From contig QCPT01000012.1 in NCBI GenBank assembly GCA_003212415.1, positions 1 to 45,672 on the forward strand: a stretch of DNA of 45,672 nt, written 5' to 3'. Positions 15,911 through 29,459 of this stretch are shown in pieces (position 1 is the stretch's first letter; every line of letters starts with the position of its first letter). The stretch is from Pelagibacteraceae bacterium AG-439-F23 (GTDB lineage: Bacteria; Pseudomonadota; Alphaproteobacteria; Pelagibacterales; Pelagibacteraceae). A program made the position numbers and the translations under genes. Under the pieces are notes generated by a model, which did not search any database, was not told the DNA's origin, and saw only the letters and a list, made by a program, of their open reading frames with translations.

Positions 15911-16661
15911 GATTATTTTTATCTTAATTTATATTTTTGCAATATCTTGTGCAGATCAATCAAAAAAAAATAATCTTTCAAGAAAATTTGTTAATTATTC
16001 TAATAAGGGATTTACACTTGTCTATGATGAAAAATTATTTCATAAAAAAATTATAAATAAAAAACTTGATGATAGGTCACTTTTAATTTTTAATAATTTT
16101 TTAGATCAAGATACACCTGTCAAAATAACTAATTTAATTAATGGTAAATATCTATTAGCAAAAGTTGGTGGAAATTCTAATTATCCTTTTTTTTACAATT
16201 CTGTAATATCTAAACGTATAGCATTAAATCTTGAAATTGATTTAAATGAACCTTACATAGAAATAAAAACATTAAATCAAAAAAATTCATTTATTATAAG
16301 TAAGGCTAAAACTTTTGATGAAGAAAAAAATGTTGCCAATAAAGTTCCAGTAAAAGGAATTGAAATTAAAAATATTTCTAGTAATAAAAATGAGGATAAA
16401 TTAATTTTAAATAAATCAAAAAATATCAATGTCTTTAAATATATAATAAAAATTGCAGATCTATATTTTGAGGACTCTGCTAATATTTTAAAAAATAGAC
16501 TTTTAAATGAGTATAATATGAACTACGTCAAAATTAAAAAAATGTCAAAAAACAGCTATAGAGTATATATAGGTCCATTTAATGATTTGGATTCTATGCA
16601 AAGAGAATATAGAAATATTATTAAATTAAATTTTGAAAATATAGAAATTATAAAATTATGA
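15900..16661 (+). CDS. RlpA-like lipoprotein with SPOR domain
   Basis: A 253-residue predicted lipoprotein. The signal segment ends in IFAISC with Cys near residue 17 as the lipidation site. The middle part (about residues 30-120) reads like the RlpA double-psi beta-barrel: TPVKITNLINGKYLLAKVGG, then ISKRIALNLEI. The C-terminal 70 residues form a SPOR domain (IIKIADLYFEDSANILKNRL and RVYIGPFNDLDSMQREY), which binds denuded glycan strands at the division septum. RlpA proteins are septal lytic transglycosylases or glycan-binding proteins; catalytic residues were not verified. Overlaps neighbours by 11 and 4 nt. The sequence is divergent, so the symbol is left blank. Confidence 0.78.
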   Translation: MIYRIIFILIYIFAISCADQSKKNNLSRKFVNYSNKGFTLVYDEKLFHKKIINKKLDDRSLLIFNNFLDQDTPVKITNLINGKYLLAKVGGNSNYPFFYNSVISKRIALNLEIDLNEPYIEIKTLNQKNSFIISKAKTFDEEKNVANKVPVKGIEIKNISSNKNEDKLILNKSKNINVFKYIIKIADLYFEDSANILKNRLLNEYNMNYVKIKKMSKNSYRVYIGPFNDLDSMQREYRNIIKLNFENIEIIKL

Positions 16662-17812
16662 AAAAAATATTAATATATATATATTCATTATTTTTCTTAA
16701 TAAATTTTACCAATGTACAAGCAAAATTTAATATAAACGCAAGAACAGCAATACTTCAAGATTTTTTATCAGGAAAAATATTATATGAAAAAGACGCAGA
16801 TCGTAAAATTTTTCCAGCATCTATGACAAAAATTATGACATCAATTATTGCATTTGATTTATTAAAAAGAAATGAAATAGATCTAGATGATAAATTTATT
16901 GTTTCTGAAAATGCATGGAGGCTTTCTGAATCTGGATATTCATCAATGTTCATCATGATTGGTGATGAAATTTCTGTTGAAAATTTACTTAGAGGTATCA
17001 TTGTATCATCAGGTAATGATTCTTGTGTTGCTTTAGCAGAAGGTATTGCTGGATCAGAAGAAGAATTTACAATTTTAATGAATGAAAAAGCCGCTGAAAT
17101 AGGAATGACAAATACAAATTTCTCGAATTCTTCAGGAATAAATTCGCCAGATAATATTTCAACAGTGAGAGACATTCTCATTATGTCAAATTATTTAATT
17201 AAAACTTTTCCTGAATATTATAAATACTTTAAAGAAAAAGAATTCACTTGGGATAGAACCGGAGGAGAGCCCATAAAACAAGGTAATAGAAATCCACTTT
17301 TATATAAAAATATAGGTGCAGATGGCATTAAAACTGGATACCTTGCCTATGAAAAATATTCATTGGCATCTTCTATTAAAAGAAAAGAAAGAAGATTAAT
17401 TGCAGTTGGAAGCGGTTTTAAAAGTAAAAATCAAAGGTCTAAAGAATCATTAAAATTGTTAACTTGGGGTTTAACTAAATTTGAAACTATTAAAATTGCT
17501 GAAAAAAACAAAAAATTTACATCTATAGATGTTTGGCAAGGTAAACAAAAAAATATAAATGCATATACTAAAACCGACATATATAAAACAATACCAAAAG
17601 CAAAAAAAAAATATTTGAAAGTAAAGATAGAATACGATGGACCTTTAGCCGCTCCTATAACTAAAAATGAAATAATTGCTAAACTTAATATTTATTATAA
17701 AGATGAAAATATTGGAACTTACGATTTGTTTTCTTCAGATAATGTTAAAAGACAAAATATTTTTTCAAGATTAATTAGCTCAATAAATTATTTAATATGG
17801 GGCGATGTCTAA
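16658..17812 (+). CDS. dacA: D-alanyl-D-alanine carboxypeptidase (PBP5/6 type)
   Basis: A 384-residue low-molecular-weight penicillin-binding protein that removes the terminal D-Ala from peptidoglycan pentapeptides and so limits cross-linking. It has a signal peptide ending near VQAKF. The three serine-enzyme motifs are complete: SMTK (the SxxK nucleophile, in PASMTKIMT near residue 50), SGN in VSSGNDSC near residue 119, and KTG in GIKTGYLA near residue 225. A C-terminal beta domain and a hydrophobic end region (SRLISSINYLIW) could anchor it to the membrane. Its last 8 nt overlap the tmk start. Confidence 0.93.
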   Translation: MKKILIYIYSLFFLINFTNVQAKFNINARTAILQDFLSGKILYEKDADRKIFPASMTKIMTSIIAFDLLKRNEIDLDDKFIVSENAWRLSESGYSSMFIMIGDEISVENLLRGIIVSSGNDSCVALAEGIAGSEEEFTILMNEKAAEIGMTNTNFSNSSGINSPDNISTVRDILIMSNYLIKTFPEYYKYFKEKEFTWDRTGGEPIKQGNRNPLLYKNIGADGIKTGYLAYEKYSLASSIKRKERRLIAVGSGFKSKNQRSKESLKLLTWGLTKFETIKIAEKNKKFTSIDVWQGKQKNINAYTKTDIYKTIPKAKKKYLKVKIEYDGPLAAPITKNEIIAKLNIYYKDENIGTYDLFSSDNVKRQNIFSRLISSINYLIWGDV

Positions 17813-18419
17813 ATATCCAGTTATTGTATTTGAAGGAATAGAGGCTTCGGGTAAATCAACTTACATTAATAAAGTCTCATAATATTTAAATAAAAAAAAT
17901 CGTAGTTTTGTAAAAATTAGGGAACCTGGAGGAACTATTTATTCCGAACTATTCAGAAAACTTATGTTAAATAAGAAATCAAAATTTAACATCAAAACTG
18001 ATTTGATGTTAATAATGGCTTCAAGATCGGAAAATGTAGAGAAATTATTAAAAAAACACTATGGAAAAAAAATTATATTGATTGATAGATTTACCGATTC
18101 AACTATAGCTTATCAACATTACGGAATGGGTATAAATTTAAATTTAATTAAAATATTAAACGAGTTCATACTTAATAATTTTAAACCAACATTTACTTTT
18201 TTAAATATTGTTAATAAAAAAAACATGAAGAACAGATTAAATAAAAGGATTAAACTAAATAGATATGATAAATTTAATTTTACATTTTACAATAAAGTTC
18301 AAAAAGGTTTTTTAAAATTAGCTAATAAAAAAAAAAATTATTTAATTATAGATACCAATATAAATAATATTGAGAAAAACCATCAAATAATATTACAAAA
18401 ATTAAAAAAAATAATTTAA
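17805..18419 (+). pseudogene. tmk: Thymidylate kinase interrupted by an in-frame TAA
   Basis: dTMP kinase makes dTDP for DNA synthesis and is normally essential. The reading frame starts at ATG 17805 (overlapping dacA by 8 nt) with MSKYPVIVFEG and the P-loop EASGKST. It then meets TAA at 17880-17882 as codon 26, and continues in the same frame with NKKNRSFVKIREPGGT, the conserved REPGGT motif, DRFTDSTIAYQ (DR motif near residue 94) and a normal C-terminus. Total span is 205 codons including the final stop, the usual Tmk length, so only one codon is wrong. An ATG at 17964 opens a 151-codon remainder that lacks the P-loop and could not be active alone. The cause could be a sequencing or assembly error, a real nonsense mutation, or readthrough. 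Confidence 0.85.
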
Positions 18420-18422
18420 TAA

Positions 18423-19343
18423 ATGGAAAGTATTAGTAAACTTATCGGCCACGATCATTTATTTAATCATTTAACTGAACTTTATTTTAAAAAAAAAATA
18501 CCAAATAAAATTTTACTAAGTGGGAAAAAAGGAATAGGTAAATTTTTATTAGCTAGTCATTATGTTAATTTTATTCTTTCACAAGATGAGGCATTTAAAT
18601 ACAATTTAAAAAACTTTGAAGTAAATAGTCAAAATAATTCATATATATTATTTAAAAATGGCACGCATCCAAACATATTTTTAATGAGTAAAAATAATGA
18701 CAAAAAATATATAGAAATATTACAGATAAGAGAAATGATTAAATTTCAAAATAATTCATCTTTTAATAATAAAAATAAGTTTATAATTATTGATAACGTC
18801 AATGATTTAAATATAAATTCTACAAATGCTCTTCTTAAATCTATAGAACAACCTAACAATAATGTAATTTATATTTTAATACATAATAATGGATCTTTAA
18901 TTCAAGACACTCTTAAATCTCGTTGTATAGAATTTAAAATTTTTTTAGATAAATCTAGTCATAAATTAATTATAAATAACTATTTTTCTAAAAATATATA
19001 CGATTCATTGTCTAATGATCTTGTCAACTATTATAATAATCCATCCTTTACAATTTCTTTAATTAATTATTTAAATGAAAATTCTCTAGATTGTACAAAT
19101 ATAAAAATTGAAGATTTAATTAGTTTAATAATTAAAAATAAAGATTATTCAAAAAATAAATTTATTAATGAAAATATCAATTTTTTTATTGAATTATTTT
19201 TTTACAAAAAAATTATTGTTACTAAAAATTTAACATTTAGATTAAAGAAACATTTTTACAATAAGTTAAGAGAAATTAATAAATATAATTTAGATATGGA
19301 ATTATTTTTTATTGAATTTAAGGATAAATTATTAAATGAGTAA
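18423..19343 (+). CDS. holB: DNA polymerase III delta-prime subunit (divergent)
   Basis: A 306-residue AAA+-type protein matching the clamp-loader subunit delta-prime. It begins ISKLIGHDHLFNHL, has a degenerate P-loop GKKGIGKF near residues 33-40 (Phe where Ser/Thr is needed, usual for non-ATPase delta-prime), then NSTNALLKSIEQPNNNVIYIL and the LKSRCIEF motif (the SRC motif). The four cysteines that bind zinc in E. coli delta-prime are not visible between the P-loop and HPNIFLM. The C-terminal third is very Asn/Lys/Ile-rich and weakly conserved. Position between tmk and metG is the standard alphaproteobacterial order, which supports the call. Confidence 0.87.
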   Translation: MESISKLIGHDHLFNHLTELYFKKKIPNKILLSGKKGIGKFLLASHYVNFILSQDEAFKYNLKNFEVNSQNNSYILFKNGTHPNIFLMSKNNDKKYIEILQIREMIKFQNNSSFNNKNKFIIIDNVNDLNINSTNALLKSIEQPNNNVIYILIHNNGSLIQDTLKSRCIEFKIFLDKSSHKLIINNYFSKNIYDSLSNDLVNYYNNPSFTISLINYLNENSLDCTNIKIEDLISLIIKNKDYSKNKFINENINFFIELFFYKKIIVTKNLTFRLKKHFYNKLREINKYNLDMELFFIEFKDKLLNE

Positions 19344-20862
19344 AAATTATTATATTACAACACCCATCTATTATCCATCTGCTAAACCACATATGGGACA
19401 TGCATATTCAAGCATTATTGCTGATTTTTTTGCTCGATTCAAAAAAATTGATGGACATAAAGTATATTTTTTAACAGGAACTGATGAACATGGATTAAAA
19501 ATTCAAAGAGCAGCAGAAAAAAATAATAAAAGCCCAAAATTATTTTGTGATGAAATTAGTAAAATTTTTGAAGATCTAACTAAAACATTAAATCTTTCTA
19601 ATACTGATTTTATAAGAACAACAGAACTCAGACACAAAAAATCTGTTCAAAATCTCTGGAATATTCTAGAGAAAAATAAACAAATTTATCTTTCCAAATA
19701 CTCTGGATGGTATTCGGTTTCAGATGAAGCTTTTTACAATGAAGATGAAGTAGAAGAAAAAAATGGTGCAAAAATTTCTAAAACATCAGGATCTTTTGTT
19801 GAATGGGTAGAGGAAGAATCTTTTTTTTTTAAATTATCTGAATGGGAAAAGCCGCTATTAAAATTTTACGATAAAAATAAAAAATTTATACTTCCAGAAA
19901 GTAGAAGAAATGAAGTTATTAGTTTTGTAAAAAGCGGGTTAAAGGACCTGTCAGTCAGTAGAAAAACATTTTCATGGGGAATTAAAGTGCCAAGTGATGA
20001 TAAACACGTAGTTTACGTATGGTTAGATGCTCTAACTAATTATTTAAGCTCATTAAAATACCCCAATAAAAACAATGATCTATACAAAAGTTTTTGGCCT
20101 GCTGATTTACATATAATTGGTAAAGATATATTAAGATTTCATGCAATATATTGGCCTGCATTTTTATTGGCTGCTAACATAGAACCACCAAAGAGAGTTT
20201 ATGGTCATGGATGGATACTTTCTGGTGATGAAAAAATGTCTAAATCTAAAGGAAATATATTAGATCCTTTAGAAATTATTAATATTTATGGTTTGGACTG
20301 TCTAAGATACTATCTTTTGAAAGAGGTATCATTTGGAAATGATGGAAATATCTCAGAAGAAAAACTAGAAAATTGTATCAATAGTGATCTTGCAAATAAC
20401 TATGGTAATTTGTGTCAAAGAGTTTTGTCCTTTGCAGAAAAAAATTGTTCATCTATTATACCAAAACATGAATTTAATAATGATGATTTAATTATTCTTA
20501 ATTCAATTTCAGACTTAGATAAAATAAGATCTTTTATTGATAATCAAGATATAAATCAATACATGAGTTTTATAGTGGATCGTCTTTTTGCATCAAATAA
20601 ATATTTTAATGATCAAGAGCCTTGGAAAAGAAAGGAAGACAAATTAAGACTTTCTACTATTGTTTATACAGCAATTGAATTAATTAGAAAAATTACAATT
20701 CTTTTGTATCCAGTAATGCCTCAAACAACTCTTAAAGTATTAAACATTTTTAATATTAAAGAAAATAAAATTGATTTTTCTTCATTAAAGATAAATGAAT
20801 TTTTAATTGAAGGATTCAAAATTAATAAATTAGATATTTTATTTAAAAAAATAGAAAAATGA
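19336..20862 (+). CDS. metG: Methionyl-tRNA synthetase
   Basis: MetRS (508 residues) charges tRNA-Met with methionine for both initiation and elongation. The class I HIGH motif appears as KPHMGHAYSS near residue 17, and KMSKS as GDEKMSKSKGN near residue 298. GWYSVSDEAFYNEDEVEEK near residue 125 is the connective-peptide motif of the alphaproteobacterial/mitochondrial type, which lacks the zinc-binding cysteine quartet of the E. coli enzyme. There is no C-terminal tRNA-binding (EMAP-II) extension. It overlaps holB by 8 nt and tatD by 4 nt, so translation is probably coupled. Confidence 0.96.
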   Translation: MSKNYYITTPIYYPSAKPHMGHAYSSIIADFFARFKKIDGHKVYFLTGTDEHGLKIQRAAEKNNKSPKLFCDEISKIFEDLTKTLNLSNTDFIRTTELRHKKSVQNLWNILEKNKQIYLSKYSGWYSVSDEAFYNEDEVEEKNGAKISKTSGSFVEWVEEESFFFKLSEWEKPLLKFYDKNKKFILPESRRNEVISFVKSGLKDLSVSRKTFSWGIKVPSDDKHVVYVWLDALTNYLSSLKYPNKNNDLYKSFWPADLHIIGKDILRFHAIYWPAFLLAANIEPPKRVYGHGWILSGDEKMSKSKGNILDPLEIINIYGLDCLRYYLLKEVSFGNDGNISEEKLENCINSDLANNYGNLCQRVLSFAEKNCSSIIPKHEFNNDDLIILNSISDLDKIRSFIDNQDINQYMSFIVDRLFASNKYFNDQEPWKRKEDKLRLSTIVYTAIELIRKITILLYPVMPQTTLKVLNIFNIKENKIDFSSLKINEFLIEGFKINKLDILFKKIEK

Positions 20863-27082: not shown

Positions 27083-27355
27083 ATGTATTTTGTTTACTTA
27101 ATAGTTTCGAAAAACAAAAAAAAGACAATTTCTTACGTTGGATATACAAATAATGTTGAAAAAAGATTGAAGAATCATAATGATTCAAAGGGTGCAAAGT
27201 TTACAAGAGGAAGAAAATGGAAATTAATCTATTTCAAAAATTACTATTCGAAAACAAAAGCATTAAAAGAAGAATATAAATTAAAAAAAAATTATTATTT
27301 AAGAAATAAAATAAAAAGAAGATTTAATGAAAATTTCAATTTTACTACCATATAA
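27083..27355 (+). CDS. GIY-YIG domain protein (UPF0213-like)
   Basis: A 90-residue single-domain GIY-YIG protein, of the YhbQ/UPF0213 size class. The motif halves are FVYLIVSKNKKKTISYVGYT (with YVGYT as the YIG part) at residues 3-22, followed by NVEKRLKNHN with the conserved Arg and the expected AKFTRGRKWKLIYF block near residues 38-51. Small proteins of this family are putative structure-specific nucleases; function here is unproven. It starts 5 nt after the tRNA-Glu CCA and its last 29 nt overlap the next glycosyltransferase gene. Confidence 0.85.
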   Translation: MYFVYLIVSKNKKKTISYVGYTNNVEKRLKNHNDSKGAKFTRGRKWKLIYFKNYYSKTKALKEEYKLKKNYYLRNKIKRRFNENFNFTTI

Positions 27356-29459
27356 AGAAAACTTTTCTCCTACTTACCCTGGGGCTGTATCTTTATTTAT
27401 AAATGATACCATTAAATTAAGTAAATATAAGAAATTTACGATAGTTTTTGGTAATACAAGTTTTAAAAAAAAATTTAAACAAAAATATAAGAATATAAAT
27501 TTAAAAAAGATTTTATTTGGTAGTCAAAACAAAGAATATGTAAATGAATTTATAAAGATAGAAAAAAAAAGAAAATCAAATTTAATAGAATTACACAATA
27601 GACCTATTTATCTAAAATATTTAATAAAAAAAATAAAAGATAGAAATTATATTCTATTTTTTCACAACGATCCTTTGTCAATGAGTGGATCTAAAACAAT
27701 ATCAGAAAGAATATTTTTGTTGAATAACTGTAAAAAAATTATTTTTAATAGTAACTGGTCAAAAAAACGTTTCATTGAAGGAATTAATAATACAATTATA
27801 AATTTTGAAAAACTAATTGTAATTAACCAATCGGCTAAAAAAAATAAAATTTCAATAAAAGATAAAAAAAATATTATAACCTTTGCAGGAAAATTAAATG
27901 AGTCAAAAGGATATGACATTTTTGGTAATGCAGTAATTAAAATTTTAGATAAATATAAAACTTGGTCAAGTATTGTTATTGGGGATGAGCCAAGAAACAA
28001 GATTGAATTTAATCATCCAAGATTAAAAAAAATGGGTTTTATAAAACATAGCGAAGTTATAAAAATTTTCAAAATAACAAGTATTGCGGTAGCATGTTCA
28101 AGATGGGAAGAGCCATTTGGTAGAACTAGCCTTGAAGCAGCAGCAAACGGTTGTGCTGTCATAATAAGTAATAGAGGTGGTTTGCCTGAAACAATTACTG
28201 ATGGAATAATTTTAAATAAGTTGTCTTATAAAGTCTTATACCAGAAAATTGACAGTCTAATTAGAAATAAAATTAATAGAATAAATTTACAAAAAAATTC
28301 CAATAAAAATTTTTATTTAACTCATAAATATATTTCTACATTAATTGATAAGATAAGAGATGAAAATTTTATACAATTTAAAAGAATTAATTATAAAAAA
28401 AAATTACCTCCTATTAGAATTCTCCATGTTACTAATTTCAATGAAAGACATAATGGTAGACTTTTTTTTAATACAGGCAGAAGAATAAATAATGGATTTA
28501 TAAGACTTGGTAATAGTGTTTTGGAATTTAGTGACAGAGATATACAAAAATACTACAAATCATACAAGGATATTTATGGTGCTAAAACTTTAAATGATAA
28601 ACTACTCAAAACTTGTAAAAATTATAAACCTGATTTAGTGGTTTTGGGACATGCAGATTTGATAAAGAGGGATACTTTGGAAGAAATTAAAAACGATTAT
28701 CCAAATGTAAAGTTAGCTCAATGGTTTTTAGATCCGCTAAATAAGAATGGCCCAGATTATCAGAAAAATAAAAGTCGTATTTTAGATAAGGCGGATCTTC
28801 TAGATGCTAATTTTATTACTACATACCCTAAAGCAATTAATTTCCTTAATACAAAAACTAGAAACTATTATATTCCTAACCCAGTCGATAAATCTTTCGA
28901 AACATTGACTAATTATAAAAACACATGTCAGAATGATGTTTTTTTTGCTTTAAGTCATGGTGTTCATAGAGGAATTTTAAAATCTAGAACTTATGATGAT
29001 AGAGAAATTTTTATCAATAAACTTGTATCACAAAACAAAAATATAAAATACGATATTTTTGGTATGGATAAGATTCAACCAATTTGGGCTGAACAATTTT
29101 TTAGATCTATATCTAATTGTAAAATGGGACTAAATTTAAGTAGAGGTGAACCAATAAAATATTATAGCAGCGATCGGATAGCTCAAATTGCTGGAAATGG
29201 ATTGGTAACATTAATTGATGAAAAAACATGCTATTCTGACTTTTTTACATCTAAAGAAATGGTGTTTTATAAAAATGTTTCTGATTTGTCAGAAAAAATT
29301 AATAAATTAAGCAGAGATGAAAGATTGAGAAAAACAATTGGAAAAAATGGTCATAAAAAGTATTTTAAGTATTTTAATTCAGAAATTGTAGCTGATTTTA
29401 TTATTACAAAAACATTGGATTTAAAAAATAATAAAAAATATTTTTGGCATAATGAATAA
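27327..29459 (+). CDS. Two-domain glycosyltransferase (GT4 plus CgeB-like)
   Basis: A 710-residue protein that reads as two glycosyltransferases joined end to end. The N-terminal half (about residues 1-345) is a GT-B enzyme of the GT4 type: a donor-site block CSRWEEPFGRTSLEAAANG near residue 254 and RGGLPETITDG follow ITFAGKLNESKGYDIFG. The C-terminal half (about 350-710) starts afresh with IRILHVTNFNERHNGRL and contains QWFLDPLNKNGPD and a CgeB-like end (LNLSRGEPIKYYSSDRIAQI, then GKNGHKKYFKYFN). It probably builds a surface glycan from two successive sugars. It overlaps the GIY-YIG gene by 29 nt and the next gene by 1 nt (TAATG). Confidence 0.82.
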   Translation: MKISILLPYKENFSPTYPGAVSLFINDTIKLSKYKKFTIVFGNTSFKKKFKQKYKNINLKKILFGSQNKEYVNEFIKIEKKRKSNLIELHNRPIYLKYLIKKIKDRNYILFFHNDPLSMSGSKTISERIFLLNNCKKIIFNSNWSKKRFIEGINNTIINFEKLIVINQSAKKNKISIKDKKNIITFAGKLNESKGYDIFGNAVIKILDKYKTWSSIVIGDEPRNKIEFNHPRLKKMGFIKHSEVIKIFKITSIAVACSRWEEPFGRTSLEAAANGCAVIISNRGGLPETITDGIILNKLSYKVLYQKIDSLIRNKINRINLQKNSNKNFYLTHKYISTLIDKIRDENFIQFKRINYKKKLPPIRILHVTNFNERHNGRLFFNTGRRINNGFIRLGNSVLEFSDRDIQKYYKSYKDIYGAKTLNDKLLKTCKNYKPDLVVLGHADLIKRDTLEEIKNDYPNVKLAQWFLDPLNKNGPDYQKNKSRILDKADLLDANFITTYPKAINFLNTKTRNYYIPNPVDKSFETLTNYKNTCQNDVFFALSHGVHRGILKSRTYDDREIFINKLVSQNKNIKYDIFGMDKIQPIWAEQFFRSISNCKMGLNLSRGEPIKYYSSDRIAQIAGNGLVTLIDEKTCYSDFFTSKEMVFYKNVSDLSEKINKLSRDERLRKTIGKNGHKKYFKYFNSEIVADFIITKTLDLKNNKKYFWHNE

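Follow-up and report, generated by a model that had tools for sequence, protein, structure and literature searches.

The dTMP kinase gene tmk of Pelagibacteraceae bacterium AG-439-F23 is broken in its assembly by one in-frame stop codon, and this interruption is most likely not a real feature of the organism. We consider it very probable that the organism carries an ordinary SAR11 tmk and that one wrong base in the draft sequence gave rise to the TAA at codon 26. The assembly would be a single amplified genome, in which the error probably arose during single-cell whole-genome amplification or during assembly, and the true codon 26 would have been AAA or a similar codon.

The interrupted tmk frame

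The tmk locus lies in a stretch of 45,672 nucleotides, which is called the window below. The features concerned are as follows, all on the forward strand.

16658..17812 (+): D-alanyl-D-alanine carboxypeptidase gene (dacA type; PF00768, PF07943), upstream, an open frame whose end runs into the first codons of tmk
17805..18419 (+): the tmk gene for dTMP kinase (PF02223, TIGR00041), its frame broken in the assembly by a single stop
17880..17882 (+): in-frame TAA at codon 26 of tmk, where 45 of 77 other copies encode Lys (mostly AAA) and none has a stop
17964..18419 (+): residual tmk ORF from an internal ATG (codon 54), lacking the P-loop, as given in the ORF list
18423..19343 (+): holB, DNA polymerase III delta-prime subunit gene (PF13177), downstream of tmk, open frame
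19336..20862 (+): metG, methionyl-tRNA synthetase gene (PF09334), open frame

The sequence-only reading had described one tmk frame that is hit by a stop and then carries on through further motifs to a normal end, and re-reading of the DNA bore this out: the frame opens at ATG 17805, is interrupted at codon 26 by the TAA (17880-17882) and resumes without a shift until a final TAA at 18417-18419. The frame count, 205 codons counting the terminal stop with no net insertion or deletion, agrees with the earlier claim that codon 26 alone is wrong. The P-loop region EGIEASGKST lies 5′ of the stop, and REPGG and DRFTDSTIAYQ lie 3′ of it, all in one frame; we take GIEASGKST to be the P-loop and DRFTDSTIAYQ to hold the DR and later motifs.

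Translated with X at codon 26, the frame scored 124 bits against PF02223 (cut-off 27; profile positions 1-184 of 185) and 130.2 bits against the dTMP kinase family TIGR00041 (cut-off 83.25; positions 6-196 of 196), and these near-full-length matches rule out a chance ORF. Both the family match and the single-frame motifs expected of a dTMP kinase gene were thus found, and an uninterrupted frame was not found in the assembly. The next ATG, GTG or TTG in frame after the stop is codon 54, and the ORF listed from there (ATG 17964, 151 aa) has neither the P-loop nor REPGG. Its product cannot restore activity, as had been stated before, since it starts at codon 54 and the P-loop is absent.

Codon 26 in related genomes

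A total of 96 tmk loci was assembled from a search of 61 genomes and from genome_contigs (66 loci titled Pelagibacteraceae, Pelagibacter or Pelagibacterales), and codon 26 was readable in 78 of them, the window's own included, with some representing the same contig twice (L020, L069). When codon 26 was compared among these related SAR11 copies, a check that the sequence-only reading had proposed, all 77 other alignable copies displayed a sense codon and none a stop. The encoded residues were Lys (45 copies; AAA 42, AAG 3), Asn (17), Ser (6) and Arg (4), with Thr, Val, Ile, Gln and Glu occurring once each. The window copy resembles SAR11 Tmk (TIGR00041, PF02223) in length, motifs, gene neighbours and identity to its three closest copies (L033, L032 and L031; 73.5, 72.1 and 70.6%, with AAA, AAA and AAT at codon 26, respectively), and differs in that a stop interrupts it once in the assembly.

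True tmk matches were obtained in 43 of the 61 genomes, comprising 41 full-length copies (own included), a split copy in G012 and a partial one in G027, and among the 41 an internal stop was found in the own genome only. Across the order, tmk was above the cut-off in 231 of 297 genomes, and among the matches listed the own copy was again the only one with an internal stop. The segment 3′ of the stop has in the window a mean identity of 59.2% to a panel of 61 relatives; its three nearest copies reach 59.0, 58.0 and 58.0%. For dacA, compared with the relatives' panel, the value is 68.9% in the window versus 69.2-69.7%. Judged by such identities, tmk beyond the stop does not look relaxed. A pattern for same-species tmk in which the stop codon was left free gave no exact match in viral_contigs.

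The second broken tmk among the 43 genomes is that of G012, a relative assembled in one contig, in which a frameshift at a nine-A run splits the gene (L108:1904-2519; G012:C1 about 600400-601020). A homopolymer error is the probable cause of this split, and slippage may rescue the gene; on that reading the split was rejected as evidence that a broken tmk is tolerated. Altogether 920 own ORFs were matched in G012, and 14 of them looked frameshifted there, tmk included, some being poor matches.

Eleven genomes of the same genus have no full-length tmk match, and HolB was searched in these and in G012. There was no match in G001 and G020; nine genomes gave weak matches only (E 3.6e-11 to 2.6e-7, frames of 545-582 aa), which would represent the DnaX subunit, and in G012 holB adjoins the split tmk. 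Loss of tmk within the genus was not accepted as a reading of the 11 drafts: the whole region seems absent from them, so they are uninformative on this point.

Other broken essential genes and the expected error rate

For a genome-wide screen, ORFs of at least 80 aa were listed on every contig of both the own genome and G012 and compared by tblastn; 959 of 1394 G012 ORFs were matched in the own genome. Fifteen G012 queries had stop-containing best matches. We kept tmk and murE, in which the stop falls within a conserved gene and identity is good both before and after it, and discarded the other 13 as lying past gene ends, as probable antisense ORFs or as poor matches, judged by the alignment near the first stop. 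Five queries looked frameshifted; pheS and pheT were kept as breaks within genes, and three were discarded after DNA inspection.

The murE break is one in-frame TAA in a joint MurE-MurF ORF (L162:11491-11493, equivalent to G000:C1:71491-71493); murE was above the cut-off in 48 of the 61 genomes, with an internal stop in the own genome only. The gene pheS has one frameshift and pheT three, in or beside A/T runs, and the two are adjacent on the 9.2-kb contig C24 (L200:3421-6886). The own pheT is listed in three pieces, and the own pheS frame has 318 aa versus 355-371 in most of the genus, with G029 (270) and G005 (218) also short. No intact second murE, pheS or pheT was found above the cut-off in the own assembly.

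Each of tmk, murE, pheS and pheT is essential to nearly all bacteria. That a living cell should have all four broken and no further copies is not believable; sequence errors must therefore lie behind most of the breaks, and the tmk stop then needs no separate cause. This argument holds for the set and is no proof for each break singly. Among other genomes, G023 has its pheT as two overlapping pieces of a single contig, and a partial murE at a contig start in G025, below the cut-off, has two stops; both breaks make the own genome look less special, and they agree with errors being frequent in drafts of this kind.

For an expected error rate we turned to work on single-cell assemblies. The extract of PMC6122165 on which we draw gives, for benchmark cultures, means of 1.5 misassemblies, 3.0 indels and 5.0 mismatches per 100 kbp, and states for marine single-cell genomes that contigs had to exceed 2,000 bp to be retained; the shortest own contig, 2,008 bp, fits such a workflow and is no proof of it. 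An extract of PMC5519541 attributes the fewest errors to assemblies of P. marinus, which are small and repeat-poor. The calculation took the own coding DNA that aligned to G012, 894 genes with 777,738 bp in total, in which 5.8% of random substitutions create a stop, 55% of such stops being TAA. At the 5 mismatches per 100 kbp of that extract, 2.2 false nonsense codons are predicted versus two observed, both TAA. For indels, a rate of 3 per 100 kbp predicts 23 in this coding DNA versus four found, in two genes, by a screen that misses shifts near gene ends and in unshared genes, and this count fits poorly.

The own assembly, whose single-cell origin is our inference, thus resembles the assemblies covered by these extracts in its nonsense count and in scattered mismatches and indels that strike genes regardless of importance, and differs in having fewer indels than the benchmark mean. 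A base-call or assembly error was one of three options offered by the sequence-only reading, and it gains support from the three further broken essential genes and from the nonsense count matching the published rate. The sense codons in all 77 other copies, and a segment beyond the stop no less conserved than in its nearest copies, speak for it as well. Several observations count against it: the contigs of tmk (45.7 kb) and murE (103 kb) are long; tmk is the only break flagged within the window, with no local mark of a poor site; and, if AAA was the true codon, A was replaced by T, a transversion unlike the C-to-T change that DNA damage typically leaves. As a caution, about two false nonsense codons are to be expected per genome of this size at the rate in the extract, and anyone who finds one essential gene broken in a draft SAR11 genome should consult reads or a second genome before inferring recoding or loss of the gene.

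Backup kinases, readthrough and a two-piece enzyme

The stop could be a recent, genuine nonsense mutation in a cell that obtains its dTMP kinase from another enzyme, encoded in the quarter of the genome that the assembly lacks. The own assembly (1,084,689 bases in 41 contigs) is 75.89% complete, which leaves room for such a gene, and replacement has a precedent: as described in the extract of PMC10653934 used here, a normally essential tmk also looks broken in the genome record of P. putida KT2440, where a 65-kb genomic island splits the gene and brings a T4-type dNMP kinase that replaces it. Unlike in that strain, a single codon is affected in the window, and no match to the T4-type dNMP kinase (DNMK family PF21448) was found in the 76% assembled. 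The only PF02223 match there is the broken tmk itself, and a profile built from the tmk of seven relatives retrieved no second tmk at E values up to 10. The proposed search for another dTMP kinase therefore returned nothing from the assembled part, which goes against the option of a real mutation backed by a second kinase. Weak second PF02223 matches occur in many relatives and were rejected as a second tmk, since the two that were read (G009 and G036), located between secY and rpsM, are adenylate kinase. The breaks in murE, pheS and pheT would, moreover, each need a backup of their own. We regard a real mutation of this kind as unlikely, and as very unlikely the variant in which dTMP phosphorylation has moved to an unrelated enzyme on the unsequenced quarter and the other breaks are part error, part genuine loss with replacement.

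Alternatively, the stop might be real, with a suppressor tRNA or leaky ribosomes reading through it to give full-length Tmk, in keeping with the conserved sequence after the stop and with the other nonsense codon of the genome, in murE, likewise being TAA. With 55% of random stop-making changes giving TAA, two TAA codons are unremarkable. The suggested search for a suppressor tRNA found no anticodon tta, which would read UAA, among the 23 tRNAs of the own assembly; the complete relative G012 has 32, so about nine are missing, and a suppressor could conceivably lie in the part of the genome not assembled. Release factor 1 is present and intact (G000:C13:22200-23255), and 794 of 1049 mechanically called ORFs end in TAA, which would make suppression costly; the frameshifts in pheS and pheT would also be left unexplained. 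Readthrough, the third option of the sequence-only reading, is accordingly highly improbable. TGA terminates 149 of the 1049 ORFs, and for release factor 2 the incomplete assembly yielded no separate prfB, giving only a below-cut-off cross-match to prfA; prfB probably lies on the missing quarter. There is next to no chance that residues 1-25 and the restart product form an active enzyme from two pieces: both segments are conserved in sequence, but a restart at codon 54 omits residues 27-53, REPGG included, and in P. putida, according to the same extract of PMC10653934, a two-segment Tmk was among the hypotheses tested and the tmk pseudogene was called non-essential.

Elsewhere in the window, positions 27327-29459 hold a 710-aa ORF that combines two distinct glycosyltransferase domains (PF00534, PF13524) in one frame.
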